From Eubacterium sp. (GTDB lineage: Bacteria > Bacillota > Clostridia > Peptostreptococcales > Anaerovoracaceae): DNA of 64,000 bases. The stretch covers positions 1 to 64,000 of the forward strand of contig JAFWHX010000015.1 of NCBI GenBank assembly GCA_017533915.1, in the 5' to 3' direction. A model generated the notes under the pieces. That model was given only the letters and a program-made list of their open reading frames with translations. It made no database searches and had not been told where the DNA came from. Position numbers and translations under genes: made by a program. Of this stretch, positions 12,044-64,000 are shown piece after piece. Each line of letters begins with the position of its first letter. Position 1 is the first letter of the stretch.

Positions 12044-12047
12044 GATA

Positions 12048-22441: not shown

Positions 22442-22460
22442 CTCATTCACCTTTCCCTTT

Positions 22461-24872: not shown

Positions 24873-24893
24873 TTTATCTCCTTCCTCCAATAC

Positions 24894-24961
24894 AAAAGGA
24901 CGTCCTTTCGACGTCCCTGGTGCTTTGCGGACGCCTTCGGGCGTCCTACGATCTGACGCCC
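24894..24961 (-). terminator. pilus operon attenuator: terminator plus competing stems
   Basis: On the minus strand GGACGTC and GACGTCC form a perfect 7-bp stem (24898-24916) followed by TTTTG, just before the tip-gene ribosome site. Upstream, GGACGCC/GGCGTCC makes a second perfect stem (24929-24946). The same bases can pair instead as GGGCGTC/GACGCCC (24939-24945 with 24955-24961). The latter two exclude each other, the usual sign of an attenuator. A seven-codon frame lies upstream. Confidence 0.6.
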
Positions 24962-25023
24962 TGGCAGACTGTGCCGGCATTCAAGCTGCACTTCTACTGA
25001 GAGCGTCACTTTTTTACCGTTAT

Positions 25024-41613: not shown

Positions 41614-41653
41614 TAAAAAACACATAGACCCCGGAGCCTGAGCCCCGGGGTCT
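41614..41653 (-). terminator. terminator of the prepilin operon
   Basis: On the minus strand AGACCCCGG and CCGGGGTCT form a strong stem with a second short stem (GGCT region) inside, followed after a few bases by TTTTTT. It closes the operon that begins with the giant surface protein. Confidence 0.82.
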
Positions 41654-41717
41654 TCCATTGCTTTAAATGCTGCTCACCGCCTTGCTGCTTATGAACTGCC
41701 CTTCAGAAATATCTCTG

Positions 41718-44138
41718 CTATTTCCTGTTCAGCAGTAATGCTTCTGGAGACGGCCAGTCACCGCGATGGATCTTCGTGAAATAGTCTGCGTTCTCCGGAT
41801 AATCATCGCCGTAAAGCTGTTTAACGGTCTTCAGATTATACTTTCCGCCATAGTATTTCTTAAGCGTGCTGTCATACGGATCTGCAGGCTGCCAGTTACC
41901 TCCAACGAAGTTTTCATATGCCCTGGCAGTGATATCTATCGGCTTGATCCTGGCGTTATCGTCGTCTCCTACAGAGCCGAGATAATGATCCATCATATAC
42001 TTCTTGTTTCCGTTCTGTGTCTCTTCAATACTTACTTCATTGATCGAGCTGAAGTAGTGACACTCTTTACCTTCAGGAACTGTTCCTGTAAATGAGCCTG
42101 CGAACGAACCAGATTTATTATTGACGGTATGATCATCTTTCTTCTTTATCGCTTCTGTCTCCACTGCACCAGTAGCATAACAGTCAGCGATAGTACCGCT
42201 TGCGCTTCCTACAAATCCGCCCGTCAGGTTGCTTCCTGATACAGAGCATGTAGAATAGCTCTTGCTGATGCTTGTTCCTCCTGCAGTTCCGATCAGACCG
42301 CCGACTGTGCTGCCTGTAATATCATATCCGTTATCTTTGATCCATTTGTCATATGATCCATCTTCTGTGTGGCCTCCTGAATAGCAGCCGGTAACTGTTC
42401 CAGTTGAAGTTCCGATCAGTCCGCCAGCTGCGGCAGTACCATTCACCCTTACAGATGCAGAGCTGAACTTGACTGTACCTCCGCTCATGCTGCCGATCAG
42501 CCCTCCAGCATTATTTGCTTTTACAGCTACCTTCTTTTCATTTGCTCTGTTCTCGCTTGCTGAGCTGATGACCGCAACATTGGAGACTTCCATATTTGAC
42601 CCTGTGATCGTCCCTGCAAGTGCTCCGGCATTTGATGTCGCCTCGATCTCAAAATCTATCAGCTTTACATTCTTTGCGACTGAATCTGTCAGGCTGCCGA
42701 ACAGTCCTGCGTTGCCATCGGCATTAGATTTAGCTCTGATTCCGGTGATACTGTATCTGGATCCATCGTATGAATATCCAGACAGTACTGTAGGAAGATA
42801 GTAGCCTGCATCAGTTGAAGCGCTTTCAGAAGAGTACTTATATATCTTCGGGGCGTCACTGCTGTCCTTAAGTGCTTTGATACGAGGAATAAATGCTTTG
42901 CCGGAAGTCGTGCCGTCCCAGAACATATCATCTATCTGAACGCCCTTACTGATCTTTACTATATCACCGTTCACAGATGAGCCGTTATTTGCATTCAGAT
43001 TCGATACTGCCTTATCCAGGTTCTCAAGGTGTCTGATATTCTTGACATATGCAGTATCGACAGTATTATTCACACCACCCTTGCCGTTATCGGCAAATAA
43101 GCTGTTAGTTTTCTCTTCTGCACTGTATTCAATGCTTGTAAACTCGTTCAAGCTGTATGCGACAGCCTGGATCTTGAGATTCTCACCCGGTGTAAAGCTT
43201 TTGCCATTCTCAGCTTCGATCTTTGCAAAGTGCATACCAGCCGTGGTGATATCATCAAGAAGGATCTTATATGTTGATCCGGAATGTGTCACTCTTCCGC
43301 TGCTGTCAGGCATTTCAGTTCCTGCTGCGGAATCTGTAAACAGTACGAACGATTTCTGCGCTCCGCTATTCTCACCTGTAATTATAAGCTTAAGTGAATA
43401 CTTGCCGCTGTTATTATCTGTTACATTAACATACAGCTGTTCTTCATTCTTGACTTCAATATCAGGTGTCTCCAGCTTCTTTGGATTATCCCAGTCATCT
43501 CCGCCATCGCCTCCGTACCAGCCAAGTACAGAATCGTCGACATAGTGACGTCTGGCCTTCATCTTGTCATCGCCGCTGTAATCAGGTACTATCCCTGCAA
43601 CGAAATCACTCTGAGTAAGTGTGTGATTGAATTTAGCCGGAGATCCGCTTGCAGAGCAGTAGAACACATCCATCACGCGGCCTGTCGGTTTATGATATCG
43701 GATTATGTAGCTTCCTCCTGCTCGTACAGTTTCGTCGATAGAACCAAATGGAAGCATCAGGTCCAGAATAGAATCTTTGGCAAGCGAGTATGTGTTAGAA
43801 GAAGGAAACACGAAATAATAAGCTCCGCTTACAGATGAATCCTCTTCACCCACAACATCATCTTTGGTCTCATCTGTCATCGTCTTTTCCAGATCCAGAT
43901 AGCCTTCTCCCCTCGCAGTAGTTAAATGGTTCTGTGCGGCATAAAAAAGCTCTTTCGCGATCTTATCTCGCTCAAATTGTGCCAGATTGCGCTGATGATT
44001 GACCAGGCTGATAAATGCTAGTGCTGCCAGTATCACTATGATCACAACAACGACCAGCAGTTCTGCCATAGTCATTCCGCTTCTGTCTGAAAACTTATTC
44101 CTGACGCTGTTCATTTTTCTGGAAACATATTTATTCAT
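41718..44138 (-). CDS. large prepilin-like protein with GLUG repeats
   Basis: An 806-residue protein with a type IV prepilin N-terminus: a basic leader, then G|MTMAELLVVVVIIVILAAL with Gly at -1 and Glu at +5, a helix of about 25 residues, and RDKIAKELFYAAQNHL. Such proteins are cut by a prepilin peptidase and built into type IV filaments. Unlike ordinary pilins (about 150 residues) it carries a very long C-terminus with five or six GLUG-type repeats (GGLIGSMSGGTV, GGLIGTSTGTV, GGLIGTAGGTS, GGFVGSASGTI; about residues 490-690), a module found in surface and adhesive proteins. The ATG at 44138 has an AAGG before it. It is the last gene of the operon. Confidence 0.85.
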   Translation of the reverse strand: MNKYVSRKMNSVRNKFSDRSGMTMAELLVVVVIIVILAALAFISLVNHQRNLAQFERDKIAKELFYAAQNHLTTARGEGYLDLEKTMTDETKDDVVGEEDSSVSGAYYFVFPSSNTYSLAKDSILDLMLPFGSIDETVRAGGSYIIRYHKPTGRVMDVFYCSASGSPAKFNHTLTQSDFVAGIVPDYSGDDKMKARRHYVDDSVLGWYGGDGGDDWDNPKKLETPDIEVKNEEQLYVNVTDNNSGKYSLKLIITGENSGAQKSFVLFTDSAAGTEMPDSSGRVTHSGSTYKILLDDITTAGMHFAKIEAENGKSFTPGENLKIQAVAYSLNEFTSIEYSAEEKTNSLFADNGKGGVNNTVDTAYVKNIRHLENLDKAVSNLNANNGSSVNGDIVKISKGVQIDDMFWDGTTSGKAFIPRIKALKDSSDAPKIYKYSSESASTDAGYYLPTVLSGYSYDGSRYSITGIRAKSNADGNAGLFGSLTDSVAKNVKLIDFEIEATSNAGALAGTITGSNMEVSNVAVISSASENRANEKKVAVKANNAGGLIGSMSGGTVKFSSASVRVNGTAAAGGLIGTSTGTVTGCYSGGHTEDGSYDKWIKDNGYDITGSTVGGLIGTAGGTSISKSYSTCSVSGSNLTGGFVGSASGTIADCYATGAVETEAIKKKDDHTVNNKSGSFAGSFTGTVPEGKECHYFSSINEVSIEETQNGNKKYMMDHYLGSVGDDDNARIKPIDITARAYENFVGGNWQPADPYDSTLKKYYGGKYNLKTVKQLYGDDYPENADYFTKIHRGDWPSPEALLLNRK

Positions 44139-44190
44139 TTTCCGGACCTTCTTAACCCGTTCTTCAACGATCAACAAAAACTACTGCCTA

Positions 44191-44733
44191 TTATGAAATA
44201 ATCCTTATATATACTTTCGAGCGACTGGTAACCAGCTCGCTGCCATATTTCACTTTGAGCCCATCAAATTCAACTAAAGTCTTTTTGCTGTTGATACTGA
44301 CGGAGTCATAAGTGACTTCAAGCTTGCTTTTTGTACGGAGCGCATCAGAGATGAGAGGCTGCCCTTCTTTTTCTCCTTCTACACTCAGATCAGAGCCGGC
44401 GTTTCTCTTATACATGATCTTACCATCGCTCATATAGATCCTGGACATCATGTTGTTTGACTCGTTATAATACGTAATTGCCGTGTTTCCGGAATTGACT
44501 TCCTGGTCTTTCGATACTCCAAGCTCATTCCTCAACGTTGAGATGGTGGTCGATAACAAAAGCTCAGCATTCGATGCCCGCTCGACCTTCTGATACGCAC
44601 TTATAGCTGCCGGCATACCTGCTGCCACGACAGAGGTGACCATAAGCAGAATAAGAATTGCTATGAGTGTCTCTGCAAGCGTAAATGCTCTGTTATCCTT
44701 CAGTTTTTCTCTGATCTTTATCATGTTGTTCAT
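44191..44733 (-). CDS. prepilin-like minor pilin (GspJ/PilW-like position)
   Basis: A 180-residue protein whose N-terminus RAFTLAETLIAILILLMV is a type III (prepilin) signal with Glu at +5. The residue before the cut is Ala instead of the usual Gly, which may slow processing. The remaining part is polar and beta-rich with no family I can name. It is placed between the 111- and 806-residue prepilins. Comparison with GspJ or PilW rests on order and size only. Confidence 0.8.
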   Translation of the reverse strand: MNNMIKIREKLKDNRAFTLAETLIAILILLMVTSVVAAGMPAAISAYQKVERASNAELLLSTTISTLRNELGVSKDQEVNSGNTAITYYNESNNMMSRIYMSDGKIMYKRNAGSDLSVEGEKEGQPLISDALRTKSKLEVTYDSVSINSKKTLVEFDGLKVKYGSELVTSRSKVYIRIIS

Positions 44734-44778
44734 AAGTCTGATCTTCCCACGATCATACCTCAGTAGATAAGGCTCTGA

Positions 44779-45114
44779 TCACGCTTCTTTATATGCTACT
44801 ACTTTTATTCTCTTGAAAGCATTGTTTTCAACGACAGTAACTGTATAGTCTTTCGTCACGTCGCCTCCGCCTTTTATCGTCACAGTGCCTGATGACGTCG
44901 AACCATCAGGAAACGTCGCCATTTTGTTTGAATTCTCATAATATGCAGCCAGATTCTTCCTGCTTTCCTGGATCATATTAAATGAAAACGCAATAGCACC
45001 GGCAAGCATTGTAAGAGCAAGTGCTGCAATCAGCATCGATATCAATGTCTCAGCGATCGTCTCACCTCGCCTGCTGTGAAGCTTTCTTTTAATCATTTCT
45101 TTTGTAGTTCTCAT
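44779..45114 (-). CDS. prepilin-like minor pilin (GspI/PilV-like position)
   Basis: A 111-residue protein with the prepilin N-terminus RRG|ETIAETLISMLIAALAL: Gly at -1, Glu at +5, but an unusual Glu at +1. A short polar domain follows (KGGGDVTKDYTVTVVEN). It is too small for a main subunit of the usual size and most likely a minor pilin. It lies between the GspK-like gene and the 180-residue prepilin gene. Confidence 0.8.
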   Translation of the reverse strand: MRTTKEMIKRKLHSRRGETIAETLISMLIAALALTMLAGAIAFSFNMIQESRKNLAAYYENSNKMATFPDGSTSSGTVTIKGGGDVTKDYTVTVVENNAFKRIKVVAYKEA

Positions 45115-45138
45115 AAATCCCTCTCATCAAAACATTCT

Positions 45139-45807
45139 TCAGATGATCTTCATGCTCTTAAGGGACCATGTGATCGACCTTGTCCTTATTGATATAGGTG
45201 TAATTGAGCCGTCATCATCTTCTACTTCTTTTGTAGACGTAGAATCTGTTACATCAGCTTTGAATACCACCTCCATAACAAACGGATGTGTGCTGCTTCC
45301 GCTGTATTTTGAAACAGCCATAGTCATCTCCTTTTTACTCGGCTGGAGCACAGTCTCCACTGCAGGCTCAGTTCCGTCTACAGGCCCTGTAATAGTTATT
45401 GAGGGCTGTCCGGGTAAAATATTGTAATACCTGCATGCAATATCGCTTACAATTGAAGATGGCGTATATGTAGTCCCTATCGGCGTGTAACTTGAGTAAT
45501 TGGCTGTCGCTTCGCCGCTTGATACATCCTCGAGAACATAACGGCTTGAAGATCCGCCTTCTGGAGTCACATCGACTACTGTCACCGTTTTATCGCATAT
45601 AAGGTCTTTCAGCAGAATGCTCGCTGACGTAACGCTGTAGTATCTCTGGTCTGTTTCAGCCATATTAGAGATACGGCCAGTGGCCGCTGATGCTGCTGTT
45701 ATTATTATCGAACTGAGGACAGCGCACACAAGAAAGAGCAGTAATGCGAATGTTATAGACGCACCCTTTCCGGAGCGCAGCTTCTTAATCGATCTGTTCA
45801 TTTTCAT
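45139..45807 (-). CDS. GspK/PilX-like prepilin lacking Glu5
   Basis: A 222-residue protein with a basic leader, then KG|ASITFALLLFLVCAVLSSII. The +5 position is Phe, not Glu. Among type II secretion and type IV pili the pseudopilin without Glu5 is GspK, which sits at the very tip. The rest is a polar domain with many Thr and Ser. An AAAGGAG stands before the ATG and the gap to the giant gene is only 17 bases, so they form one operon. The GspK comparison is an inference from this one feature and gene order. Confidence 0.75.
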   Translation of the reverse strand: MKMNRSIKKLRSGKGASITFALLLFLVCAVLSSIIITAASAATGRISNMAETDQRYYSVTSASILLKDLICDKTVTVVDVTPEGGSSSRYVLEDVSSGEATANYSSYTPIGTTYTPSSIVSDIACRYYNILPGQPSITITGPVDGTEPAVETVLQPSKKEMTMAVSKYSGSSTHPFVMEVVFKADVTDSTSTKEVEDDDGSITPISIRTRSITWSLKSMKII

Positions 45808-45824
45808 CCACGCTCCTTTCGCTA

Positions 45825-48800
45825 TCAGCCTGCATGTACGCTGACTTCCTTATCGATCTTCTTCTCGCCGTTTTCAGTATACTCATACCCTACGCCATTT
45901 TCATTTACTGTTACAATGAAGTAATAACCGTTGGCTGGAGTATCGTATCCTGCAGGTGCTTCGATCTCCTTTACATAATATGTTCCGTAATTCAGGTCTC
46001 CTGCAAAGAATACTCCACTTTCTCCGGATACAAGCGGATCTGCAGCGCTCCCAAGCGGATCGCCGTTTGCATCATGCGCGACTCTCGTTCCCTGCCTGTC
46101 AGCATAGATGATGAACTTCGCGCCTGCCAGTGAATCATATGATCCGGCAGCTACTTTCCTGAGTATTACTCTGCGTGTCCCGCGGATACCGTTCCAGCAT
46201 ATGATCTGTACATCTGCACTATCATATTCGCCATACAGCACATCTCCGGTCGCGTTCTCTGTACTTGTATCGTCTCTCGCATTTCTGAATACAGAAGGCT
46301 TATTGCTTCCTGCCTTAACGCCGCTCTTCATCTTTGCGAATGGCATGAACTGCTTATTATGATATTCATTATCAGCCCATACCCAGATATCTGTGCCGCC
46401 AAGGAGACTGCCGGTTATCGTAATGGTCTTAGGCTCATTGTCATCTTCTGTACCGGTCTCTGCGAGATATATATCTACATTTACATTATTGGTACCGTAA
46501 GGCTCACCGCCGTGAAGTTTATCTTCGTAGTTTGACATTTCAACGACGTTGTGAGAGAAGTGCGGCGTGCCTGAGATATTCATATGTGAACCATTGGTGA
46601 GATAAATACCTGCGCCCTGCTCTCCTGCACTGTTGTTCCTGATCGTACCGCCATTCATGGTCAATGTGGTATTCTCTGAAACGTATACGGCTCCGCCTTT
46701 TCCTGTCACCTTTGAATGCTGCAGTGTAGCTCCGGTTCCGATAGTAAGCTGAGCGGACTTATCAACTACCTTAATGATGCCGCCATCGCAGTTGACAGTA
46801 ACTTTGTTATTGCCATCAAGTGTAATGTTGGTCACCGTGAGTGCAGCATGGTTGATTATCATGCTCCTGTCATCAAGATCTGCACCTCTCTTGATCGTAC
46901 AGTAAGTCCCGGAACGTCCCGTGTAAGCATATCCGTCTGTATCATCCGGAGAAGCTGTTGTGAGCGCCACGGTCTTTCCACGAGCAAGCTGTACCTGATT
47001 ATTGAGCTCATAAGAGCCGATCAACATCTTGATCATACGGGCAGTTGCCTTCGTTCCGTCGGCATACTTGAACGTCGTGCTGCTGCTGTTGTTGATATCA
47101 TCAAATGCACCTTCGAGCGAATTGTATACAGCCGGGCTGCCATTAATGTACAGCAGAACCCCATCTCTATCGGTGATCTTGCAGATTACTTCTTCCCACC
47201 TAGCGTACAGGGTCATATCTCCCTTTGAGTATCCTTTACTGATCGTATCAGCGTCATTTCCTCTGAAGAATCTGATCTGCTCTTCATATGCATATTCATC
47301 GTAAACAGCAGAAGTGTCCGGATCAGGTGTGGCCCAGCTCATGAACACATGGCTGTCCCAGGTAGGATTGACTTCATCAATCGTATAGATATGGTATGTT
47401 TCAGTAGTCGTGAAGTTGATCGTATCTGTACGCGGAACATTAAGCTCTCCTCCTGAAAGCTTACCGCCCTTTGGATCATATGTGATCGTCGGCTCGCTGT
47501 CATTGTACAGTTTGAAGATATCACCAACAAATCCTTTTTCATCTCTGTCTTCAGGAATGGCTATATCGATCGTCCTGTTAACATATTGTTCTGTTGATGC
47601 TTTCGTGATCCATACAGCCGAATTATCATTCCCGATAGTTACCTCCCAGTAACCTGCCGGACGTACAGTAGATTCATTGGTAGCCTGTTCTTCAAGTCTG
47701 TATTTGCTTCCAGGCTTGAAGTTTGCCTTGTTGCCGCCTTCAGTCTCTGTTGTCTGACCCCATGGAATGACGACGTTGCCATCCGCATTGCTGCTGCCGG
47801 ACCATACCTGCTTACCATCATCTATATTAGTAAAGGTAAATGTTACTCCATTGAGAGCATCTTTTGTCTGATAGTTCAGTACAGACAGCCTCATAGGCTT
47901 ACCCTGCCACATCACGAAATAGCTGCTCGAAGATATCTGCTCACCATCCATTCCAAGCAGCTCATCATCTCTGTCATTCTTGAACTTGTTAAGTCTTGCT
48001 CCACTGACATTTGATCCATCATATGTTCCGAAGTTTCTGGCAGCGATTCCATGTTTATAATAGATGTCTTCACCATCTGCTACGTAAACGCCGATGTTCG
48101 CTCCAGATCCTAGCCCTGTAGTATGAATGATATCATTGCTGTCATATTCCAGATAAACATTCATCTTCGTTGTGTTATCTGTTGATGTGTTTCCGATGAC
48201 TTTTGCGTTTCCTGAGAACTGTAGTGTACTTTCTTCATCAGAGGCTACTGCACCTGCCGGTGAAACATTACCGCTGATCTCTCCGCCGGACATCGTGAAT
48301 GTATGATCGCTTCCAGCAACGAATACCGCTCCGCCTTTGACAGAAGCATTGTTGCTCTTCATGCTGCCGGCATTCATTGTAAGAGTACCCTGGACATAAG
48401 CAGCACCGCCTGTAGCCGCACTGTTCCCCTCCAGTGATGTAGATCCTGCCAGAGTCACTGCCGCGCCGTCTGTTGTATAGATCGCGCCACCGTTTCCTGT
48501 AACAGTATTATTACTCAGTGTGCTTCCGGAGATCTTCGTTGTTGAGCTTACTGACAGTCCGCCTCCATTAGCAGCAGAGTTTCCTATCACTTTGCTTCCC
48601 TGATACAATGTGCACGCCGCAGTGCCGCCTGTACAGATACCGCCGCCGTTGCCAGCTGCACTGTTGCCTTTGCCGTCTTCTTCTCCACCAACAGTACCTC
48701 TGAGGAATACGCCTGCTTCTGAATAGACAGCTCCGCCGTTGCCAGCCGCCGTATTACCTGTCAGCTCTGTTCCAGCATTGATAGATACACTGCCGCCTGT

Positions 48801-54800: not shown

Positions 54801-57800
54801 GGAGAAGCTTGTATTAGCGACAGGATTACCGTCCGCATCTGTAAAGAGTCCAGTCAGCGACCACGCCTTGCCTACGGCACTAGGGAACAGAAGCTTGATG
54901 GCTTCCCCGTCTTCAAGTGTCAGATCACCCGCTGTCACCGGATTAAGTGTGTCTAATGTTATGTAATTCCTGGCTGTTGAATACCCATAGCCATCAGCGA
55001 CAGCATTCTTTGCCAGTACAGTCATAGGATCAATAGTCAGCTTATTCCCGGAATTATTAACGATCGAGATATAAGCACCCTGAGCATAGTAAACTCTGAG
55101 ACTGGTCGACTGGCTTATCGTATTATCATGCTGCTTTGATTCCCATACCTGGTCTTCAGTGTTCCAATTTACTTCTGTGAGGAATTTTTTGAAATCACCG
55201 GCATTATCGATAAATGAGTAAGCATAGAGGTCATTACCATTAAGCTTATTCTTATAATTGTTCGCAGGTGCATTGGTGTACATTTCCATAACAAGGTTAT
55301 ACATAGCATTTTCCTGGGACTTAGGATAATATGTGAATGACGCGCCGCTTATCGCACTCCCATTTGACCCTGTCGGCAATGTACCATTGCTTACACGATA
55401 TATTGCAACATTGATCGCTTTGCTCCATACGATCTTGTAATTGTTTTCTACCGCAGTGAGACCGCTGTGCCTGTCATTGGTGAACTTGCTCAGGTTGGTG
55501 TTTACAGTATAAGTACCGAATTTACCACATGCATCACTACGTTCATATTCATTATCGTCTTTATTATTATCTGTGGCGTAAATACCGATATTAGCGCTTC
55601 CGCCAAGACCTGCTGTATTTATCACAAGATCTGAATCCTGATCAAGATACACATTGCACTTGCCGCCCTCTGCATCGCTTATATCAGAAGTGTTCCCTGT
55701 AATCACAGCATTTCCGGCAAAGTTCATTGTAGCAGATGTACTGCCCATTCCGACGGCGCCGCCTTCGGTGGCAGTATTGCCGGTGATATTACATCCGTTG
55801 AAGTTCGCTATACCTGCCTGGTCTACATAGACAGCTGCACCGTTCTTTGCGCTGTTGGCACCATTTATAGTGCTCTTCAGATTGACTGTACCTGAAGACT
55901 GGTATACAGCACCTCCAAAACCATTTGGAGCTGTGTTCTGCTGTATCGTTCCTCCGGTTATCGTTACAACGCCTGATCCGGCATAATTGATCGCGCCTCC
56001 GTTTCCATCAGTAGCAGTATTACTTCTAATGGTTCCTCCGGAAATATTAACAGTACCGTTGGTAGCATAAAGCATACCTCCATCAGATGAGGCTGTGTTC
56101 GAACTTACAGAACCATTTGTAATGCCGAGTGTACCTCCTTCGAGATAGAACGCACCACCCTTGACAGCTGAGTTTTCAGTAATATTACTGTTCGAATTAT
56201 TGACGTTTACTGTTCCTCCGGTAACGAACGCAACACCTCCGCTCGTGGCATTGTTATAGTGCACAGTACCGGTTATATTTGCAGTGCCTCCGGTAACATA
56301 GATCACGCCGCCGTTTGTAGCCGTGTTCTGATTCGCTTCATCTCCGATAGTGCCGGACAATGTTACTGTATAATTAGATGAGCCAGATTCCATGTATACT
56401 ACAGCACCATTGGTCGCCTTGTTTCCGGCAACAGCAGAAGTGCTGAATGTTGTAGTACCACCTTTTGTATATACTGCGCCGCCGTTCGTGGCTTCATTTC
56501 CGGTGACCGGACCAGTTATAGTAACAGTACCGCCGTTGACATAAACCGCTCCTCCATTAGCAGCCTTGTTACTATCAAGTGTACCGTTTATGTTTACAGT
56601 ACCATTATTTACGTAGATCGCCCCGCCATTATCGCCGCTGGCATTCTGAAGCACAGCATTCTGATTAACGTTCAATGTAGGGCTGCCGCCGCTGCGGCTG
56701 TTAAGCACCATGGCATCTGTAGCTGTGACATGGTTGCCGTCCAAAGTGACTCTGTCAAGCGTCAGTGTGCTTTCATTTTTCAGCATATGTCCTTCCGTGA
56801 ATGAAGCGCTACGCTTTATAACAGCTGTTGATCCAGGCTCACCCTCATACCACTCTGAACTTGTTGCTGTAGTAATAGTGATATTGTAACCATTCGGGAT
56901 AGTCAGGCTGTCATCTGAAGGCATGGCGTATTCCCCGATCAGCATCTTTATCGTGCCTGTCTTATCTGAATGATTATTTTTGATATACGTGAACGCATCA
57001 TTAAGCGAGTAGAACTTCTCATCGTCTACTCTGCAGATGTATTTCGGCAGGTAGAACAATGTCAGGACAGCTCCTGCAGGAACGTCTGTGAATTCACCAC
57101 TCTCAGTCCTGTATTGCCATTTAGCCTCAGCTCCATCAGCAACATATTTAATAGCATAAACAGGTGTGTCGCCTGATGCGCCGCTGATAGGCTCGCCATC
57201 AGAGCTATACAATGAAGCATGATCGTATGCGTAGTATTTGCCAGCCGGGAACCTGTAGCCAATAGATGCAGCCGCTCTGTCAGCGAATGTGGAATTCATC
57301 ACCGCTGTCTTGTCTTCTCCAGCAGGTATTCCAGTAGCTCCGGTCGGCAATACAGTTTCAGCGCCTTCTTCTGTCTGATCTACTCCAGCTTTTGCTTCCA
57401 GCGGAAGACTGATACGCCTGTGTGTAAAGGCGATGCCATAGTAAGTGTCTATATTATTTATGACACATTCAGTATCACTATCTTCATATGGATCGCCATC
57501 TATCGTTATGACAGTTATATAATCATCATTTGTATTATCCTGAGTTACTGTAAGCTTGGCGCCAGCCGGTACTTTCAGTGTCTCAAGGAATGGAGTGTCA
57601 GACTCCTCATTAGGAAGTGTGAACGTACGAGTTGGTACTCCGTGTTCATCCGGACTGAACCCGTTCTTTTCATATTCATCAAGACCTGTCCCGGTAAGAT
57701 CGAGCTTTGCAGTATATGAGTAGGAAGGTCTTGCCTTCGAATCAACAGGGTCTACGACTGGTGCCGTAACATCAATATCAAGGACAGACAGAATACTGAA

Positions 57801-60800
57801 AGTGCCCTGTTCATAGATCACTGTATAGTTGCCCTGATTCTCTTCTCCTGCTGCGGTGATATTATAATCACCTTCTTCTTCTCCAGGCTCACGATGTAAT
57901 GTAAACGTCAGTATTGTTTTACCGCCTAATTTATAAGTCCATGTTACTGTTCTGGTGGCGGTATCAACAGTCGATGAAGCTTCACTTTCTGCATCATCAA
58001 AAGCCCATCCTGTTACTGATGCAGTGAGTAACGGATCATCCGCAACTCCGACTGCCTTCACAATATGATCTGGAGTTACGGTCAGCTCTTTCGGCACGAT
58101 CGTCAGCGTTCCCGTTTCAGGATAAACGTTGTAGTTGCCCTCGACATAATATGTATTATGATCCTCATCCTCTTTCGCCTCTCCAGTGAAAACAGGCGTG
58201 ATCGTGTATCCGTTTTCGTTCACATCTTCTCCTGCCGCTCTGCTTACTGTGAACGTGAGAAGTGCAACAGATGTACCATCTTTAACTACAGTATAAGTAT
58301 ATGTACGGATACCTGTATCCACATCCAGCTGAGATGTAAGCGTGCCGCCTTCATCGCTTCCCTGAAGCCCATCAAGCGTTACGTTCCACTCGGGATCATC
58401 ATCTCCATATACTTTCTCATCGTCTTCAACTTTAACCACCAGGGAAGCACCGCTTATAGTGAATGTCGCATTTTCACTATACACATCATAATTCCCCTGG
58501 ACATAATAAGTCTTGCCATCGTCGTCCGTCTGTGGATCACCATCAAACTTCACTGCAATGGCATATTCGCCTATACTTTCACCCTCGTCACGTACAAGAT
58601 CAAAACTTATGACAGTTGGTGCGTCGCCAAGCTTCAGACCTTCAACATCTGCATGGAGCTCAGGATCATCTTCACCATATTGTTTAGATGCATCTTCAGC
58701 TTTTACAGTCGCCTTAGCCCTGTTGATAACATATTTTATTTCCTTGCCTTCACCATCTGTACGTACATAAACAACAGTATAATTGCCCTGATCTGTATCT
58801 CCTTCCAGAGTTATCTTATACTCGCCTGCATCCTCACCTTCTTCACGGGATACTTTGTACTTTACAGTATCTGCATCGCTGGTTCCTGCAGTATCGTCAT
58901 ATTTGAGTCCTTCAACAGTTACCAGAGTCTCCTCTCCCTCATCGCCGTATGTCTTGCTGCCGCCTGCAGTGATCGTAACTGTTGCTTTGGTAATAGTTAA
59001 TGTTCCGGTCTCATAGAGAACACGGTACCCTTCCTGAAGAGGATCTCCTGCTGGAGTGATCGTATGCTCACCGACATCTATGCTTTCTTCACGGGATACT
59101 GTGAAAGATATATCACGTGTCGTTTCATCTTCTCTTGTTACAGTAGCAGTATAGCTGCCATCAGCATCCGGTCCAGAAACAGCAACTGTAGAACCTTCTT
59201 CCATTACAGTCGCGTTAAATGTGTATGGTGGGATTTCTTCTCCATACTCAGCAGAAATATCATTCACCTTGATCGTTACTGTGCTCGGTGTCTGTGTATT
59301 CTTTATTATTATACTTCTCGGATCCGAACCCGATGCAGGTGTGATGTTGTATGTATCTTCCTGGTTATCCGGAACAGGCGATTCGATCACAAAGTAGTAA
59401 TATGGATTCCCGTTTTTGTCGGTCGCCTCCAGAGAATCGATCGTCTCTGTCCAGCTGGTATTATTGACAAATCCGGATTTGACTACACTGGAGCTGCCAA
59501 TAAGAGCAAGGACCTCGTCATGTGTAAGATCATGATCTAAAGATGCTTCACTTGTCGTCCTATATAGATCAAATCTCACGGAAGGTTTCCGTGTCGTATC
59601 GCTTATCGGTGTCGTCCCGTTGAGATCAAACCACTGTTTGCTGATCCTGACACTGACAGCACCCTGGTTGTTGATAACATACCATCCGGTACCGCTGATA
59701 TGGAACTTATATGCATAACGGGAAATAATGTTTGAACCCGCCCCATCATACACGGCTTCTTCCTGAAGCGAATAATCAATGATGTTGTCATCATCATCTG
59801 TAGCAGGAAGTCCTTTAAAGCTTGTAGTGTCATAGTACTGATCTTTGCTCAATTCGATAGTCATCGGCACTCCGCTTTTATTCTTTACAGGTTCCGGTGT
59901 GCTTCCGTTAACAGACTGATAGAGTCCGACCACGATATGATCAACCTCATCAGGCCATGGGTCTGATTCGTCGAGTCCCCAAGTTGCAGTCACAGGGATG
60001 TCAACTGTTTTATTTGTATTTGCTATCGTTACCGTATTATAGCTATGTTTCAGATCTGTAGCTGTCGCGCCAGAAGGAAGACCCTGAGGTACAGAACTGC
60101 TGTTTTCCGGGTAATAGAAATATACTTTTTCCGGATCTTTTGGCAGTACATAATTCTCTGGCTCCCCAGTCTCTTTTGCATAGTAAAGCGTGTCAGCCTT
60201 GTAGTCAGCTCCGCTGTCGCTAAAGCGGATCGTAACAGGTTTGACAACTTCTTTCTGCTCGCCATCTTCTTCAATTATTTCAGTTTCTGTTCTGTAAACA
60301 GCTCCTGGTACCGGGGTGTCATCAAGCGCTTTGTATACCGTGAACTCAGCACCAGGCAGGGTTTCGCCGGTGTTTTCATCCAACTTGACGATAGTCAGCT
60401 TATGGTCTACATATTCGTTCGTAAATAACAGGTTATAGCTGTGCGAATCGTGATCCGGATCGACGAGGAACTCATTCGTATCCTCTTCGACTGGTCTGCC
60501 ATCGACCTGATATGAAAGAGTGGCGCTATCATTCAGTTCTATCTTGTCTTTTATCTCATCCGGCAGTGCGTTCTCTTCAATGACCCTGTAAGTGGATCCT
60601 TCTTCAAGATGCTTTCCTGCTTCAAAACTGAAAGATCCATAAGTAAATTCACTATAAAGGTGGCTCTCCTCATCTACCCAGCCTGATGCTGTGTCAAGAG
60701 CTTCTCTCTGCAGTGTGAACTTGATAGCATTCTTCTGTTCATCCGTCAGTTCGTAGTTGCCGCTGAAACGCTTTGTTACGTTTACACCGCTTGATATCGG

Positions 60801-63800
60801 ATAGCAGCGTACTTTCAGAACGTCGCCGTTGAAGAAGCTGTAGATCCCGCCATAGGTATAATCCGGGTCATCTGTTATCAGGAAACTATAGAGAGTATTG
60901 TCTTTCTGATAGTAAATATCCTCTCCATCTTTATGCTCATAAGGAGCAGTGATCATCTCCAGATAATAAGCTGTGTTCTTATGTATGGAAACTCCGTCAG
61001 TAGCCTCATCAAGCTGTATCGTTACATAACCTTTTCTGCTGCCGGTTCCTGTCTCGAAGGTTATTTCCTCACCTGCATGCGGACCGGCTTTGTAAGTCAT
61101 TGGCTGTTCATTGGAATCGAGCAGACGGAATACAGCACCGTTCAATCCGTCTTCCATATGGCCTTCAGCATAAACGAACAGATCGATTGTATACACTCCG
61201 CCGGTACCGGAAATATCTGACCCGGTCGGTGATATAGTCTCTGTTTCCTCTACTGTTGCACTATCGATTCCTACGAATGAACTGCCGCTCATATCGCCGA
61301 TCTCTGCTGTATTATTTACACTTACATCCTGACCGGCATTACCTTTTACTCTCGTACGATATGTAACTGTTACAACAGATTCATCCGGTATAATAAATGT
61401 TCCGGTATAGCCATAGTAATCATATGAGACCTCAGTTGATGGGCTGCCGTTAACAAGTACAGTGATAGAACCATAATTGATCGACTGGTTATCACTGAAT
61501 GTATCCTGAAGAGTAATGTAATCACCGGTTCCGATGTCTGCACCTTCAGGATTCACAGTTATCATGTATTTTGCTATATCACCTGTGAATTCCGTCAGCT
61601 CTTTTTTAATCAGCTTCGCTTCACCGTCAACGATAACAAGACGCCCGTTAATAGTTTCAGCAACCACATAATTACCGGTCGTATCTCTGGTCTCATCTAC
61701 TGTGACGCCGGTAAATGTTACATCATAGCTGCCTATATCTGTCCCTTTTCCGGAAGCTTCGACTCCTGTAAATTCCAAACCTGAAACGCTGCAAGTATAT
61801 CCGGAAACAGTCTGCTCCTCATTGTTAAATTGTTTGGTCGCACTGTTCGCTATAAGTGTTACACCCTTCGGAACAATGATCAGCTTGCCAGTTCTGTATT
61901 CGACTGTATATTTGCTTGTTACGTCATCACCTTCCGCATTAACGATCACGGCATCAGAAGCGGTTATATCATATTCCCCTACATTGATACTTCCATCCGG
62001 CACCGTGGTGTTGACCGATTCAACATGGTCTCCGTCCGCCAGAAGTGTTTCATCATACGAATACTTATTATCTGTGAGTGACTGACCATCATATTCCTTC
62101 TCGACATCATCAGCCTTGATGGTGATTTTACCGTCGAGTACTGTCAGTGTTCCATTTTCATATGTGATCTCATAGCTTCCTGTGACATCTTCATTACTGG
62201 AATTCTTGATCACAGCATCACTTGGAACATTGGCGCTTGTTCCTACATCTGTCTGCGATCCAGTGATCGTTACACTCTCAACGCTGTCGCCTCCAGCAAG
62301 TTCTGTATTGGTGAAGCTGTCTTTCGTAAGTGCTGTTCCATCTGATACTTTTGACGCGCTGTCTGCACGTATAGTGATCGATCTCGGAGTGACTTCCAGT
62401 TCACCATTTTCATATGTGATCTCGTAATTATCTGTAACATCCTGATTCTGTGAGTTCTTGATCACAGCATTACTCGGCACATTGGCACTTTTACCTACAA
62501 CAGTCTGAGAACCAGTGATCGTCAGTGAATCAATATAGTCACCATCTGCAAGGTCTGTATTATCATAAGTATTACAGGTCAGCGGCGTACCATCATAAAG
62601 CTTGATATCATTATCAGCAGTTATCGTGAGCGGGATCTTGTCCCCACCCTTCGCATCTCCGTCGCCATTAAGCGTAAATGCACCGGCTAGTCCACCAGCA
62701 AGAACATATACTGAAAATCCATCTGTACTGAACTTCACAGTATCATCCTTAGAAGTCACATCCATGATCTCAGGTGTTTTGTCCTTTGCATCTTCAAAGT
62801 GGACGACACTGAGAGCTGTGTCTTCATCTATTTCTTCATCAGTCAATCTAATACTGACTTTCACCTTGCTGTCCGGCTGGAATTCTTCTTTTGTTTCCGG
62901 ATCGATCAGCTTGATGTCGAAAGCACGAGCAAATAACAGCTCATCTGCGTCTTCATCAAGAGCGTCGGCAGTCTTCTCCACATAGTCCGTGTATGCTTTG
63001 CTCTTCTGTCCGATCTCTTCCGCCTGAAGAGTAACTGATTCAGCAAAATTGCCTGTAACAGTTATGATCGTCTTACCGGCCCTGGCTTCAAGTGTACGCG
63101 AAGCCATCTGTGATGTAACTACAAGAGAAAGAGTGCTGACAGGGTTCTGATTCTCTGCGCTCTCTGCCTTCTTCTGATAGTTATATTTAAACGTAACCGA
63201 ATCCTTAGCCTGATCCAGGCCGGCTTTTTTGTTTGTGAACCTTACGGCATCTTCGCCGTCTTTATAAGCCTTATCTTTGTCGTATGCTTTGTAGTAAAGA
63301 AGCTTTTTGTCAACGTCCTCTGACCTGTATACTGAAGCGTCCGCCGCGTAAGTATTCTTATCTAATTTCTTTGTATATTCTTCTGATCTCAGTGCTGCTT
63401 CTTCATATGAATAAGCGATCAGCGCGTTTTTATCGCTGATCTCCTTGTCAATAACAGCACCTTTCACAGTGATCTCTACAGGTTCTTCCGGAATATATAC
63501 TTTCCCGTTCTTATCAAAAAGTGTGATGTCGAGCGAGAAGAGGCCCTTCTCTTTATAGGTCTCCCCATCTTTTAATGAGATATATCCTGCTTCTGCTGTA
63601 GTTCCTTCCGGAAGCTTTCCGCTCACTGTGACTTCAAGGTCGATATCATCACCTTCTGAGTCAGCTTTTCTTCCTGTGAGAGATTTCCAGAAAGAATTAA
63701 CCCTCTTATACTCTTTAGTCTTCTTCTGTTCTTTATTATCTTTATAGAGCTCTTCTTTGATGAGCGTGGCTTTGATAACGCTCTTCTTCAGCTGCTCATC

Positions 63801-64000
63801 TTCTGTTTTGGTGGATGTATCGTCTTTCTTTTTCGGGGTTTTTGCATCTGAAGAACCGCCATCGGTCTTATCCTCTGGCGTTTTAGCGGTCTCATCTTTC
63901 TTTTCAGGTTTCTCGTCTTTGGCATCCTCTTTTTCTTCGGAAGGCTGCTCAGACTGAGGTTCGTCAGGAGCCGTCTCCTGTGCGCTCTCCTCTACCTGAT
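45825..64000 (-). CDS. giant modular surface protein, 5' end beyond window
   Basis: The frame is open from the right edge to a TGA at 45825, at least 6058 codons; a GTG at 63626 is not a real start, because the frame continues upstream without stop through a Lys/Glu/Pro-rich linker. Modules from N to C: the linker and a beta domain (to about 62.64 kb), four Ig-like/YDG-type repeats (62.64-61.63), SpaA and Cna-B-like domains (61.63-59.29), five MBG-like repeats (59.29-57.79), then five parallel beta-helix units with Gly-Gly-Ala rungs like chlamydial Pmp proteins, separated by isopeptide-type domains, and one last SpaA domain (46.17-45.83). There is no sorting motif or membrane segment at the C-terminus. 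Four prepilin genes follow at once, so I infer an adhesin attached to a type IV filament. Confidence 0.9.
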   Translation of the reverse strand, partial: QVEESAQETAPDEPQSEQPSEEKEDAKDEKPEKKDETAKTPEDKTDGGSSDAKTPKKKDDTSTKTEDEQLKKSVIKATLIKEELYKDNKEQKKTKEYKRVNSFWKSLTGRKADSEGDDIDLEVTVSGKLPEGTTAEAGYISLKDGETYKEKGLFSLDITLFDKNGKVYIPEEPVEITVKGAVIDKEISDKNALIAYSYEEAALRSEEYTKKLDKNTYAADASVYRSEDVDKKLLYYKAYDKDKAYKDGEDAVRFTNKKAGLDQAKDSVTFKYNYQKKAESAENQNPVSTLSLVVTSQMASRTLEARAGKTIITVTGNFAESVTLQAEEIGQKSKAYTDYVEKTADALDEDADELLFARAFDIKLIDPETKEEFQPDSKVKVSIRLTDEEIDEDTALSVVHFEDAKDKTPEIMDVTSKDDTVKFSTDGFSVYVLAGGLAGAFTLNGDGDAKGGDKIPLTITADNDIKLYDGTPLTCNTYDNTDLADGDYIDSLTITGSQTVVGKSANVPSNAVIKNSQNQDVTDNYEITYENGELEVTPRSITIRADSASKVSDGTALTKDSFTNTELAGGDSVESVTITGSQTDVGTSANVPSDAVIKNSSNEDVTGSYEITYENGTLTVLDGKITIKADDVEKEYDGQSLTDNKYSYDETLLADGDHVESVNTTVPDGSINVGEYDITASDAVIVNAEGDDVTSKYTVEYRTGKLIIVPKGVTLIANSATKQFNNEEQTVSGYTCSVSGLEFTGVEASGKGTDIGSYDVTFTGVTVDETRDTTGNYVVAETINGRLVIVDGEAKLIKKELTEFTGDIAKYMITVNPEGADIGTGDYITLQDTFSDNQSINYGSITVLVNGSPSTEVSYDYYGYTGTFIIPDESVVTVTYRTRVKGNAGQDVSVNNTAEIGDMSGSSFVGIDSATVEETETISPTGSDISGTGGVYTIDLFVYAEGHMEDGLNGAVFRLLDSNEQPMTYKAGPHAGEEITFETGTGSRKGYVTIQLDEATDGVSIHKNTAYYLEMITAPYEHKDGEDIYYQKDNTLYSFLITDDPDYTYGGIYSFFNGDVLKVRCYPISSGVNVTKRFSGNYELTDEQKNAIKFTLQREALDTASGWVDEESHLYSEFTYGSFSFEAGKHLEEGSTYRVIEENALPDEIKDKIELNDSATLSYQVDGRPVEEDTNEFLVDPDHDSHSYNLLFTNEYVDHKLTIVKLDENTGETLPGAEFTVYKALDDTPVPGAVYRTETEIIEEDGEQKEVVKPVTIRFSDSGADYKADTLYYAKETGEPENYVLPKDPEKVYFYYPENSSSVPQGLPSGATATDLKHSYNTVTIANTNKTVDIPVTATWGLDESDPWPDEVDHIVVGLYQSVNGSTPEPVKNKSGVPMTIELSKDQYYDTTSFKGLPATDDDDNIIDYSLQEEAVYDGAGSNIISRYAYKFHISGTGWYVINNQGAVSVRISKQWFDLNGTTPISDTTRKPSVRFDLYRTTSEASLDHDLTHDEVLALIGSSSVVKSGFVNNTSWTETIDSLEATDKNGNPYYYFVIESPVPDNQEDTYNITPASGSDPRSIIIKNTQTPSTVTIKVNDISAEYGEEIPPYTFNATVMEEGSTVAVSGPDADGSYTATVTREDETTRDISFTVSREESIDVGEHTITPAGDPLQEGYRVLYETGTLTITKATVTITAGGSKTYGDEGEETLVTVEGLKYDDTAGTSDADTVKYKVSREEGEDAGEYKITLEGDTDQGNYTVVYVRTDGEGKEIKYVINRAKATVKAEDASKQYGEDDPELHADVEGLKLGDAPTVISFDLVRDEGESIGEYAIAVKFDGDPQTDDDGKTYYVQGNYDVYSENATFTISGASLVVKVEDDEKVYGDDDPEWNVTLDGLQGSDEGGTLTSQLDVDTGIRTYTYTVVKDGTSVALLTFTVSRAAGEDVNENGYTITPVFTGEAKEDEDHNTYYVEGNYNVYPETGTLTIVPKELTVTPDHIVKAVGVADDPLLTASVTGWAFDDAESEASSTVDTATRTVTWTYKLGGKTILTFTLHREPGEEEGDYNITAAGEENQGNYTVIYEQGTFSILSVLDIDVTAPVVDPVDSKARPSYSYTAKLDLTGTGLDEYEKNGFSPDEHGVPTRTFTLPNEESDTPFLETLKVPAGAKLTVTQDNTNDDYITVITIDGDPYEDSDTECVINNIDTYYGIAFTHRRISLPLEAKAGVDQTEEGAETVLPTGATGIPAGEDKTAVMNSTFADRAAASIGYRFPAGKYYAYDHASLYSSDGEPISGASGDTPVYAIKYVADGAEAKWQYRTESGEFTDVPAGAVLTLFYLPKYICRVDDEKFYSLNDAFTYIKNNHSDKTGTIKMLIGEYAMPSDDSLTIPNGYNITITTATSSEWYEGEPGSTAVIKRSASFTEGHMLKNESTLTLDRVTLDGNHVTATDAMVLNSRSGGSPTLNVNQNAVLQNASGDNGGAIYVNNGTVNINGTLDSNKAANGGAVYVNGGTVTITGPVTGNEATNGGAVYTKGGTTTFSTSAVAGNKATNGAVVYMESGSSNYTVTLSGTIGDEANQNTATNGGVIYVTGGTANITGTVHYNNATSGGVAFVTGGTVNVNNSNSNITENSAVKGGAFYLEGGTLGITNGSVSSNTASSDGGMLYATNGTVNISGGTIRSNTATDGNGGAINYAGSGVVTITGGTIQQNTAPNGFGGAVYQSSGTVNLKSTINGANSAKNGAAVYVDQAGIANFNGCNITGNTATEGGAVGMGSTSATMNFAGNAVITGNTSDISDAEGGKCNVYLDQDSDLVINTAGLGGSANIGIYATDNNKDDNEYERSDACGKFGTYTVNTNLSKFTNDRHSGLTAVENNYKIVWSKAINVAIYRVSNGTLPTGSNGSAISGASFTYYPKSQENAMYNLVMEMYTNAPANNYKNKLNGNDLYAYSFIDNAGDFKKFLTEVNWNTEDQVWESKQHDNTISQSTSLRVYYAQGAYISIVNNSGNKLTIDPMTVLAKNAVADGYGYSTARNYITLDTLNPVTAGDLTLEDGEAIKLLFPSAVGKAWSLTGLFTDADGNPVANTSFSYTLDRTHGGTEASKSTDGNGKFTLSGNTNGTAGGTYEILFGQPTKICKVMGNDGVYHPFPTLNEAWDYIVNNNLTTDVTYKKNDGTTETKNNVPGGRIEMLVDYLQPLSDVLKPGVKKPNGYYLELTTAEAGDGELDYKGGTDDEGNLITRATISRDSDNDGAAVIAEVNIGTATSSAEACNAFVTLDNITFDGKALAKKGNGGAVSTINNVVSIKDCEFKGYQAARGGAVFVMWGGVDIRDCTFSNCVTGDSNDKTGGGAIWTTAKVLRVKDCDFDHCDCEPVGTKSQAGAVFHNIQQSGKPVYNNAPSNYAKYPNNYYQGTKTYIDGCNFSKCYAEGGSGGTIESDALEIYLESSTFDGSYSNKASANGGAINILHNNEYQDSGNYSPLTGSKLIVYDCSFKNCQTQKTGSRGGAIQASNTAEVKIMSSSFENVSSFQGGAVRMGASNSTLEIYSSTFKDCNGKTEAGAVYTPAKTLTIGDEYTYTKTDGTTVTVSGTPCEFTDCTSPKYGGVWQTSTATDSSAAANNSTFTTCSSTNSEAGAIYTAAKTLTLNGCTFDKCTATKDGGAVYHASTSDTLNNVEFKECTSGKGGGGAYLASTTINITGGKFEDCTAQSTGGGVYLKSTATISGCDFTNDTVLDTSGLGGGIYFDGTKLDFYEGTISGCSANNGGGIYQRAASNGVTIHSGSITDCNAASGAGYYKNGGNLTINGGSITDCEATENGGGIYNNNGAVYIYIPENDDDSKISGCKAKNGGGIYLVQSTLDLGQNGGNSKGVITGCEASENGGGIYIYNTSGLSLRNTSSIEDCLAKEAGGAVYHRAGTFGIYGSAYIENCVAGSSLDGGDFSESNLGGGVYQAGGTFNFYADSADGRIDSCKAYNGGGVYHASGTYNNGGNTNKTGNIIKCDAKNEGGGIYHAGGTGNVTIAGGVIGGSEENANKADKGAGVFVADGATASFNNGGAAALDPQITYNHARVEGGGIAVGGSTAVLNFGNKFTVQYNTMGASTECNVYLDVNSNTVIRNSALSADAYIGVYASDEQDPAHGEATKPFATRSNDANLDRYRNDRHPLTGAKGTGSLVVWTSYVCKITDGSGHMLYLDAAHKNPAVYTTLENNGEANKTSAYGMLMYADPELYNADGSRYSGSYQIQMYVQEYTTENRMGTPQTFTAKTITLTTASPEPDEAGFSYNGDPKHPYATIVRGGTFDNAWITVRDDLTLKNVILDGAEKPSVDRGAIIAVKGSSGAITVGENATIKNGYSTQVGGGAIALYESGNTANIYGGTIENCRTDGNGGAIFTDVANTAINMKDGTIKGCSAKNGGAVYIADVSASFNMYSGSITECSATTSGGAVAVGGLNARLHFGKNGDAEATGLCTVIGNTCTSGGSSFRNNVELAQDSNDIINASGINADSEIGIYVPGDMDNPNSQWGKHGGKVRPFGTRDSSIADDKLYCFVNDREPSQRGFKSETDPDNILIYWHGQPLLRVSKKVESDLSADKSTYFRFMIRLTDNSGNPVTFDRRTTFEDITFETDGTAEITLKDGESKTAALPDEFLIDNTYYTVSEELTEEQQEDYITKAHEVKQPVPEDQTTEVSGRLGENIDGSDDSTSMSHAEFINDRVTGEITIVKTVESDEPDDFNDSFDFTITLGDTTISKAYPAFDSNGDEIPDGITFTNGVGHIGTGSNVPALKNLKSITIKDLPTDLPYDIVENLTEVQSARVRTTVKKDSHEEAQELLNAVVGDNVITREGKEVYSSTIIFKNNFLEIVCKILNRSRELLYYRDGNGVLQRAVFSHLEDAFDKINIGNIRTSTDGNVTGTLRVEMIVPAHTTERPAELVAGKTVILTTALTTDEDLFPYNKGKDDGHGNISTVTRGFDHGSMIHDSGVLTIDKIILDGGSTAEETPITASADGGIVDVAGAVKLTVNSAATLQNSKVTGNGGAIRLGNGASLTMSGTIDNCEANSGGGVYAASGFTTIATTGVINECRATAGNGGAICAETGGSVSINAGTELTGNTAAGNGGAVYSEAGVFLRGTVGGEEDGKGNSAAGNGGGICTGGTAACTLYQGSKVIGNSAANGGGLSVSSTTKISGSTLSNNTVTGNGGAIYTTDGAAVTLAGSTSLEGNSAATGGAAYVQGTLTMNAGSMKSNNASVKGGAVFVAGSDHTFTMSGGEISGNVSPAGAVASDEESTLQFSGNAKVIGNTSTDNTTKMNVYLEYDSNDIIHTTGLGSGANIGVYVADGEDIYYKHGIAARNFGTYDGSNVSGARLNKFKNDRDDELLGMDGEQISSSSYFVMWQGKPMRLSVLNYQTKDALNGVTFTFTNIDDGKQVWSGSSNADGNVVIPWGQTTETEGGNKANFKPGSKYRLEEQATNESTVRPAGYWEVTIGNDNSAVWITKASTEQYVNRTIDIAIPEDRDEKGFVGDIFKLYNDSEPTITYDPKGGKLSGGELNVPRTDTINFTTTETYHIYTIDEVNPTWDSHVFMSWATPDPDTSAVYDEYAYEEQIRFFRGNDADTISKGYSKGDMTLYARWEEVICKITDRDGVLLYINGSPAVYNSLEGAFDDINNSSSTTFKYADGTKATARMIKMLIGSYELNNQVQLARGKTVALTTASPDDTDGYAYTGRSGTYCTIKRGADLDDRSMIINHAALTVTNITLDGNNKVTVNCDGGIIKVVDKSAQLTIGTGATLQHSKVTGKGGAVYVSENTTLTMNGGTIRNNSAGEQGAGIYLTNGSHMNISGTPHFSHNVVEMSNYEDKLHGGEPYGTNNVNVDIYLAETGTEDDNEPKTITITGSLLGGTDIWVWADNEYHNKQFMPFAKMKSGVKAGSNKPSVFRNARDDTSTENATGDVLYGEYDSADVQIICWNGIRGTRRVILRKVAAGSYDSLAGAKFIIYADRQGTRVAHDANGDPLGSAADPLVSGESGVFFAGDLNYGTYYVKEIEAPAGYDTPANGYYFIVTVNENGVGYEYTENGEKKIDKEVSVHAG
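46180..47190 (-). repeat. beta-helix unit 5 of the giant protein, short
   Basis: Header ICKITDRDGVLLYING, then KMLIGSYELNNQVQLARGKT and only a few rungs (VTGKGGAVYVS, REQGAGIYL-like). The cap is degenerate (VDIYLAETGTED, FRNARDD). It is followed directly by the final SpaA domain. Confidence 0.78.
47910..49500 (-). repeat. beta-helix unit 4 of the giant protein
   Basis: Header VCKILNRSRELLYYRD, then VEMIVPAHTT and rungs of mixed Asn and Cys type (IDNCEANSGGGVY, IGNSAANGGGLS). The cap is NVYLEYDSNDIIHTTGLGS with FKNDRDDE. A Cna-B-like domain and a stretch with TYDPKGGKLSGG follow. Confidence 0.82.
50350..51540 (-). repeat. beta-helix unit 3 of the giant protein
   Basis: Header VCKITDGSGHMLYLD, a short helix with both Gly-Gly-Ala and Cys rungs (IENCRTDGNGGAIF, IKGCSAKNGGAVY), and the cap NVELAQDSNDIINASGI with FVNDREPS. 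Two isopeptide-type domains follow it (50.35-49.51 kb). Confidence 0.82.
51545..54670 (-). repeat. beta-helix unit 2 of the giant protein, Cys-rich
   Basis: The largest unit. Header ICKVMGNDGVYHPFPTL, then about 25 rungs in which the position that is Asn in unit 1 is usually Cys (FDKCTATKDGGAVY, FKECTSGKGGGG, FEDCTAQSTGGG, ITDCEATENGGG). It ends in the cap NVYLDVNSNTVIRNSALS and YRNDRHPL. Confidence 0.85.
55420..57050 (-). repeat. beta-helix unit 1 of the giant protein
   Basis: It starts with the header ICRVDDEKFYSLNDAF, then GTIKMLIGEY, a Thr-rich strand, and about fifteen rungs with NGGAVYVNGG. The rung position before the Gly-Gly turn is mostly Asn (SNKAANGG, GNEATNGG). It ends in the cap NVYLDQDSDLVINTAGLGG and FTNDRHSG. 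Confidence 0.85.

Follow-up and report, generated by a model that had tools for sequence, protein, structure and literature searches.

We analysed a window of 64,000 nucleotides, comprising bases 1-64000 of contig 3 in a 2.19-Mb genome (G000) whose organism, as judged from coinciding match places, belongs to one family with the MAGs RUG11951 and RUG13917, and found a gene for a giant protein lying between the core genes of a type IV pilus and a cassette of four prepilin-like proteins. Based on its sequence and gene surroundings, the giant is probably secreted and carried by the type IV pilus as an adhesin in place of wall anchoring. We favour, as reasonably probable, the proposal that in this monoderm it serves a type IVa pilus as its non-pilin effector, as an analogue of PilY1/PilC; by analogy with these proteins, it may be located at the pilus tip.

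Features of the window are given below with coordinates and strand.
45825..64000, continuing to contig position 64109, minus strand: gene for the giant, predicted to be secreted, with a signal-peptide-like start, MBG_2, SpaA, Cna_B and DUF7601 domains, GGAxY blocks and a terminal SpaA-like domain
45828..46181, minus strand: C-terminal SpaA-like domain of the giant, common to pilus-linked giants, without sorting motif, with an invariant Lys and Glu
45139..45807, minus strand: prepilin K, 222 aa, opening the minor-pilin cassette, with Phe for Glu at mature position 5
44779..45114, minus strand: prepilin I, 111 aa, named from its position, with relatives in other loci
44191..44733, minus strand: prepilin J, 180 aa, Pfam N_methyl match, ComGE/ComGF below cut-off in NCBIfam
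41718..44138, minus strand: prepilin X, modular, about 806 aa counted from a start codon picked by eye, with a GLUG repeat and a prepilin N-terminus
41626..41653, minus strand: intrinsic terminator, 12-pair stem and T-rich tail, closing the gene row
12047-12228, plus strand: lysine riboswitch
836-941, minus strand: THF riboswitch
16467-17062, minus strand: six-tRNA cluster

Extent and domains of the giant protein

The frame of the giant spans 45825 to contig position 64118 on the minus strand, crossing the window edge at 64000, and has no internal stop; counting from the ATG at contig position 64109 gives a protein of 6,094 aa. An earlier note on this DNA had put the protein at more than 6000 residues, which is correct; the range stated in that note, 41614..64000, ends inside the gene. 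The same note had named an N-terminal anchor, or a genome devoid of type IV filament genes, as findings that would speak against a pilus-borne giant, and neither was encountered to the right of 64000: pil genes are present, and the protein begins not with an anchor but with a signal-peptide-like stretch (MKRLKQILSLLLITMMVFSGS..., judged from hydropathy and by eye, with no dedicated predictor). LPxTG and a membrane segment are both missing from the C-terminus (...KKIDKEVSVHAG), in agreement with the earlier description. A class III prepilin N-terminus is absent from the giant and is found instead in X and in seven large proteins upstream of K elsewhere.

In a Pfam search at E 0.01, for which the giant was divided into three pieces, the only matches are to MBG_2 (five stretches), SpaA, Cna_B and DUF7601, and the giant therefore carries no known wall-binding or PilY1 domain. 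The PilY1 domain PF05567 is not among these matches, and a PF05567 search of the genomes returned zero matches, as did its control, which also matched in no genome.

A GGAxY-like motif occurs in 36 copies in the giant versus a mean of 1.6 over 200 shuffles. Of the 35 spacings between copies, 22 are at most 40 residues, and 20 of these 22 fall within 24-31 residues, a spacing that resembles beta-solenoid surface proteins. Since the motif is periodic and one repeat block has a sub-threshold match to Chlam_PMP, the repeat blocks are likely to form a beta-helix; the beta-helix proposed in the earlier note is supported by these two observations. A PDB search with residues about 3,370-4,090, which lie in the repeat region, gave no match at E 0.01.

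Type IV pilus genes and gene order

Directly upstream of the giant, on the same strand, lie pilB, pilT, pilC, pilD, pilM, pilN and pilO (contig 64253-71453), so that genes for the Gram-positive type IV filament postulated earlier are indeed present in the genome. PF00437 and PF00482 are matched at 67.4-70.9 kb of contig 3, and PilM_2, A24 peptidase and N_methyl are further Pfam matches among the pil genes; PilN has no Pfam match and PilO a sub-threshold match to T2SSM, both being named via position and similarity in relatives. The combination of PilB, PilT, PilC, PilD, PilM-N-O and prepilins is that by which a type IVa pilus system is recognised, and one is accordingly predicted in this monoderm. 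No promoter- or terminator-like site was seen in the gap between pilO and the giant, and pilB-T-C-D-M-N-O-giant-K-I-J-X reads as a single gene row ended by the predicted terminator.

No known RNA, riboswitches included, was detected upstream of the giant at gathering thresholds; matches there at E up to 10 belong to eukaryotic or archaeal-type small RNA families and were discarded as chance-level. Elsewhere in the genome (G000:C9:148658-151368), T2SSE and T2SSF are matched a second time, possibly by a Tad/Flp-type system.

The prepilin cassette

The first prepilin, K, follows the giant after 17 bases (45808-45824), as originally read, and the strong terminator recognised at the far end of the cassette has a 12-pair stem and T-rich tail (41653-41626, minus strand). 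Prepilin-like N-termini were identified by eye in all four downstream frames, in support of the four prepilin-like proteins claimed earlier, but the fourth, X, is not a small pilin: it has about 800 aa, is of the modular kind and is kept in relatives. J lies just above the Pfam N_methyl cut-off and X above the NCBIfam domain cut-off; K and I have no N_methyl match in Pfam and no prepilin match in NCBIfam.

K has Phe at mature position 5, confirming that the first prepilin lacks Glu5, and Glu is absent from this position in all 39 readable cases among 40 K loci, those of L054, L067 and L069 being taken from their printed N-termini (GASITF motif). The comparison with GspK that the earlier note built on this trait holds for the missing Glu5 and for the position in the set but not for sequence, as K showed no relation to GspK or PilX by Pfam, PDB or profile search. 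The likeness of K to GspK is therefore an analogy of position and missing Glu5.

Distribution of the giant and prepilin genes

Using PilM as query, 35 named loci were obtained, by their titles mostly from rumen and gut Clostridia, and those reaching far enough usually have the order K-I-J-X-pilB-T-C-D-M-N-O-pilin. Thirty-one of these loci were carried into a genome search (L013, L031, L038 and L039 were left out), in which a profile of six K proteins matched in 24 of the 31 genomes, and all 26 places with matches at E below 1e-20 were fetched. Among 393 genomes drawn from the window's order, the K profile matched in 30, comprising 14 that were fetched, the window's own genome, two that duplicate named genomes (G392 and G412) and 13 weaker, unfetched ones. 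The fetched K loci with upstream DNA number 40 and correspond to 39 genes, L057 and L067 being two ends of one K gene.

In 16 of these 40 loci, which derive mostly from mutually related metagenome-assembled genomes (MAGs) sampled by PilM or K similarity, the first gene recognised upstream of K encodes a giant predicted to be secreted, or a C-terminal piece of one (gap at most 0.9 kb), and one further locus has the order giant-X-K; the gene pair that the earlier note proposed to survey thus recurs in other genomes. Three of the 16 deserve qualification: L056 is a C-terminal fragment only, L058 is a C-terminal part only, at a contig end and separated from K by 507 bases, and L051 has a low-complexity frame of 308 aa within the 0.9 kb between giant and K. 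Seven loci have a large prepilin upstream of K, ten have neither giant nor large prepilin beside K, five are at a contig end and one (L078) is unclear. L068 (Butyrivibrio MAG) and L073 share the gene order of the window, in which the giant comes after pilO. Thirteen giants, the window's included, have an apparent start; they measure 1,159-9,143 aa, and a signal-like segment is found in all but L059 (12/13). In a class-level draw of 391 genomes, K was detected at E 1e-10 in four, the window's among them, and the terminal domain of the giant at E 1e-16 in the window's own only, which marks the module as narrow.

Several of these loci have features of their own. The large modular prepilins upstream of K (L049, L077, L080, L082, L083, L084 and L085) have 777-2,568 aa, and six of the seven exceed 860 residues, the length, with 12 domain copies, of the most extreme multi-domain modular pilin named in the accessible passages of PMC8179133. 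The giant of 9,143 residues is pilus-linked (L061 with L092, G128:C14), and on a different contig of its genome a second giant, of 7,364 aa, is accompanied by a separate K-I-J-X set. L102 (G421, 3933-12758), taken with L074, has a second giant (2,941 aa) with the same type of terminal domain directly after X, giving the order giant-K-I-J-X-giant. GGDEF-type genes occur beside the pilus loci L005 (13767-14927, by eye), L012, L102 and L103 (the latter three by similarity to that of L005), hinting at c-di-GMP control of these loci.

The terminal SpaA-like domain

The giant ends in a domain of about 115 residues whose relatives in the PDB are SpaA/CnaB adhesin domains and for which a profile (A2) was built from 16 rows. 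Seven columns of the domain are invariant, including one Lys and one Glu. The roles of an isopeptide Lys and a catalytic Glu in CnaB-type domains are stated in the abstract of PMC3132780, and we equate the invariant Lys and Glu with these two residues as their predicted counterparts.

LPxTG was found in none of 26 pilus-linked rows, the window's giant included, versus 8 of 10 lower-scoring rows, where the lower-scoring side consists of the nine next-best loci of the family search (one gave two proteins and one was unreadable) and L124 rather than every lower match. The other two lower-scoring rows have membrane-tail-like ends. The set of 26 omits L118 (G144; cut at the contig end), L056 (fragment) and L122 (duplicate) and includes L117, a weak match of 63 bits with a stop reported in its frame; L113, with its C-terminus outside the fetched stretch, was omitted from the lower-scoring side. 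By eye, an Asn-bearing strand directly precedes the motif in 8 of 8 LPxTG-bearing rows, whereas a clear acceptor in the last strand was seen in 2 of 26 pilus-linked rows (L051 and L055), is doubtful in L059, L061, L071, L102 and L103, and belongs to a strand that is missing or altered in the others. An automatic acceptor pattern was rejected as an over-count, since six of the nine pilus-linked rows that it flagged (9/26) owe this to the VxVN of an earlier strand; it also flagged 5 of the 8 LPxTG-bearing rows, one of them two residues early. An N or D located 4-5 residues ahead of the terminal domain in 16 of 16 rows (by eye) is likely to be the acceptor of the preceding SpaA domain in most rows, and is uninformative in G000 and L073, where the preceding part is a repeat region.

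A family search of 349 genomes yielded nine terminal-domain matches of at least 76 bits, four of them in proteins that had contributed to the profile. LPxTG is absent from all nine, and pil genes lie directly beside seven, with K after in five, X before in one and pilB after in one; the remaining two are G026:C213, with no recognised pil gene following, and G392, near a contig end. Lack of a sortase does not account for the missing sorting motif of the window's giant, since a sortase-type locus of the window (17193-24980, minus strand) encodes a sortase and a SpaA protein of 839 aa ending in IPKTGD and a membrane tail. Two other surface-type proteins and a signal-peptidase-like protein, the last named by eye, are also encoded in this locus.

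Because the Lys and Glu typical of isopeptide formation are kept and the acceptor Asn strand is mostly lost, the terminal domain could be a natural catcher in which a strand from a minor pilin completes the fold and locks the giant covalently to the pilus tip. We regard this as rather unlikely; no donor strand separating giant-bearing from giant-free loci is evident by eye in the C-termini of K, I and J. A covalent lock, if true, would combine a retractable type IV pilus with isopeptide chemistry.

Co-occurrence of the giant with K

In a tree of 42 K rows, all 19 giant-bearing rows fall into one clade with support 98/98, which totals 30 rows (19 giant-bearing, 7 giant-free and 4 contig-end), and the 12 rows outside this clade have zero secreted giants. 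The association between clade and giant has a Fisher p of 8e-5 over 36 non-edge rows, uncorrected for kinship and drawn from related genomes picked by PilM or K similarity rather than independently. Seven of the ten giant-free K loci fall in the clade, and three of these seven genomes (G141, G142 and G146) are without the terminal domain at E 1e-12. The giant label changes 11 times on the K tree versus a shuffled mean of 14.2, a value as low being reached in 28 of 500 shuffles, which indicates weak clustering; with this many changes, the trait comes and goes inside the clade.

At E 1e-12, 19 of 24 named genomes with K carry the terminal domain versus 0 of 7 without K (p 3e-4, again over related genomes that are not independent draws), 12 of the 19 having supplied rows of the terminal-domain profile; without these 12, the comparison is 7 of 12 versus 0 of 7 (p 0.017). 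K-bearing genomes that have no terminal domain at this threshold are G119, G141, G142, G145 and G146, and in G121, G124, G137, G138 and G144, which are giant-free or contig-end K genomes, the domain lies away from K.

Proposed mechanism and alternative explanations

In the mechanism that we propose, the giant would be secreted N-terminus first, and its last-made terminal domain would stay near the membrane and dock on the complex of minor pilins from which the filament begins. A dock at this end is plausible because the C-terminus would leave the Sec channel last, beside the membrane-held minor pilins. K, lacking Glu5, would be placed at the top of the complex, which PilB would push outward together with the giant as the pilus tip. 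The long beta-rich body, made up of MBG, SpaA/CnaB and beta-helix-like blocks, could then bind a surface or partner cell, towards which PilT retraction would draw the cell.

Alternatively, the giant may be a substrate that the pilus helps to export by pseudopilus-like action, as in the T2SS, and then be released or left in the matrix instead of being borne at a tip. The same gene linkage would be expected, the giant has no anchor, and HIJK minor pilins of the T2SS interact directly with secreted effectors according to passages of PMC10191384. However, no outer membrane stands in the way in a monoderm, and a signal-peptide-like start is part of the giant itself; the presence of pilT, for retraction, fits a type IVa pilus, and the conserved C-terminal domain suggests retention, which leaves export an unlikely explanation. 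Attachment of the giant to the cell wall or to a wall polymer without help from the pilus, whose genes would only share its regulation, would accommodate G121, G137 and G138, in which a giant lies at a distance from K and has unrelated genes after it, as well as the ten of 40 loci with no giant beside K. We consider this quite improbable given the lack of any known wall-binding Pfam domain at E 0.01, the genome-level co-occurrence with K and the confinement to one K clade. Finally, the named relatives are nearly all MAGs, and the adjacency of giant and prepilins might be accidental or an assembly effect, but many distinct assemblies show the same orientation and a similar order, to one or the other side of the pil core genes, and there are long contigs such as the window's (239 kb), making this extremely improbable.

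The reading of the giant as a pilus-borne, non-pilin effector, which we prefer, points to giant pilus adhesins among rumen and gut Clostridia. It also offers a small testable unit, the terminal domain of about 115 residues versus the four pilins, for studying what keeps a non-pilin attached to a filament that retracts.

Comparison with known systems

Adhesion by the model monoderm pilus has been explained by modular pilins. Passages of PMC10191384 place the non-pilin tip effector PilC/PilY1 in diderms and describe outer-membrane-associated components as missing in monoderms, and those of PMC9934059, from 2023, call PilC/PilY1 absent there. A text search of a survey of Gram-positive type IV pili (PMC3244431) turned up none of the terms adhesin, PilY1, SpaA and GspK. 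A module of a giant and four prepilins is not described in the titles and abstract openings covered by our literature search, a coverage outside which subscription journals and preprints lie.

Like GspK and PilX, which top the HIJK complex, K lacks Glu5 and heads a four-prepilin set, although it shows no sequence relation to them. The modular pilins PilB and PilC of Streptococcus sanguinis, as portrayed in parts of PMC8179133 and PMC9934059, likewise present adhesive modules on a monoderm type IV pilus and are proposed to act at the tip. X of the window's cassette resembles these proteins, whereas the giant differs from them in that their module is fused to a pilin; having no prepilin N-terminus, the giant must dock by another contact. 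With sortase-anchored SpaA/CnaB adhesins the giant shares similar domain types and a terminal domain related to solved ones, but it is without LPxTG and membrane tail, and the giants mostly have no acceptor strand after the last domain.

The closest parallel is with PilY1/PilC. According to passages of PMC7541494, PilY1 of M. xanthus has a type I signal peptide and a poorly conserved N-terminus, clusters with four minor pilins, among which PilX lacks Glu5, and contacts the minor pilins through its conserved C-terminal domain. Compared with what parts of PMC7541494 and PMC10191384 report of PilY1/PilC, the giant is likewise a non-pilin with a predicted signal peptide, its gene stands with those of four minor pilins, one of them devoid of Glu5, and giants too combine a variable N-terminal part with a conserved C-terminal domain, so that all these PilY1 traits have a counterpart except the domain family and the minor-pilin contact itself. 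Unlike PilY1/PilC, the giant has no PilY1 domain by Pfam, ends in a SpaA-like domain, belongs to a monoderm host and is far larger than the M. xanthus protein of about 160 kDa. The diderm PilY1 layout would thus be repeated in a monoderm with an unrelated terminal domain and, if this is true, the PilY1 solution arose again, perhaps in a lineage of sortase adhesins that traded its wall anchor for a pilus dock.
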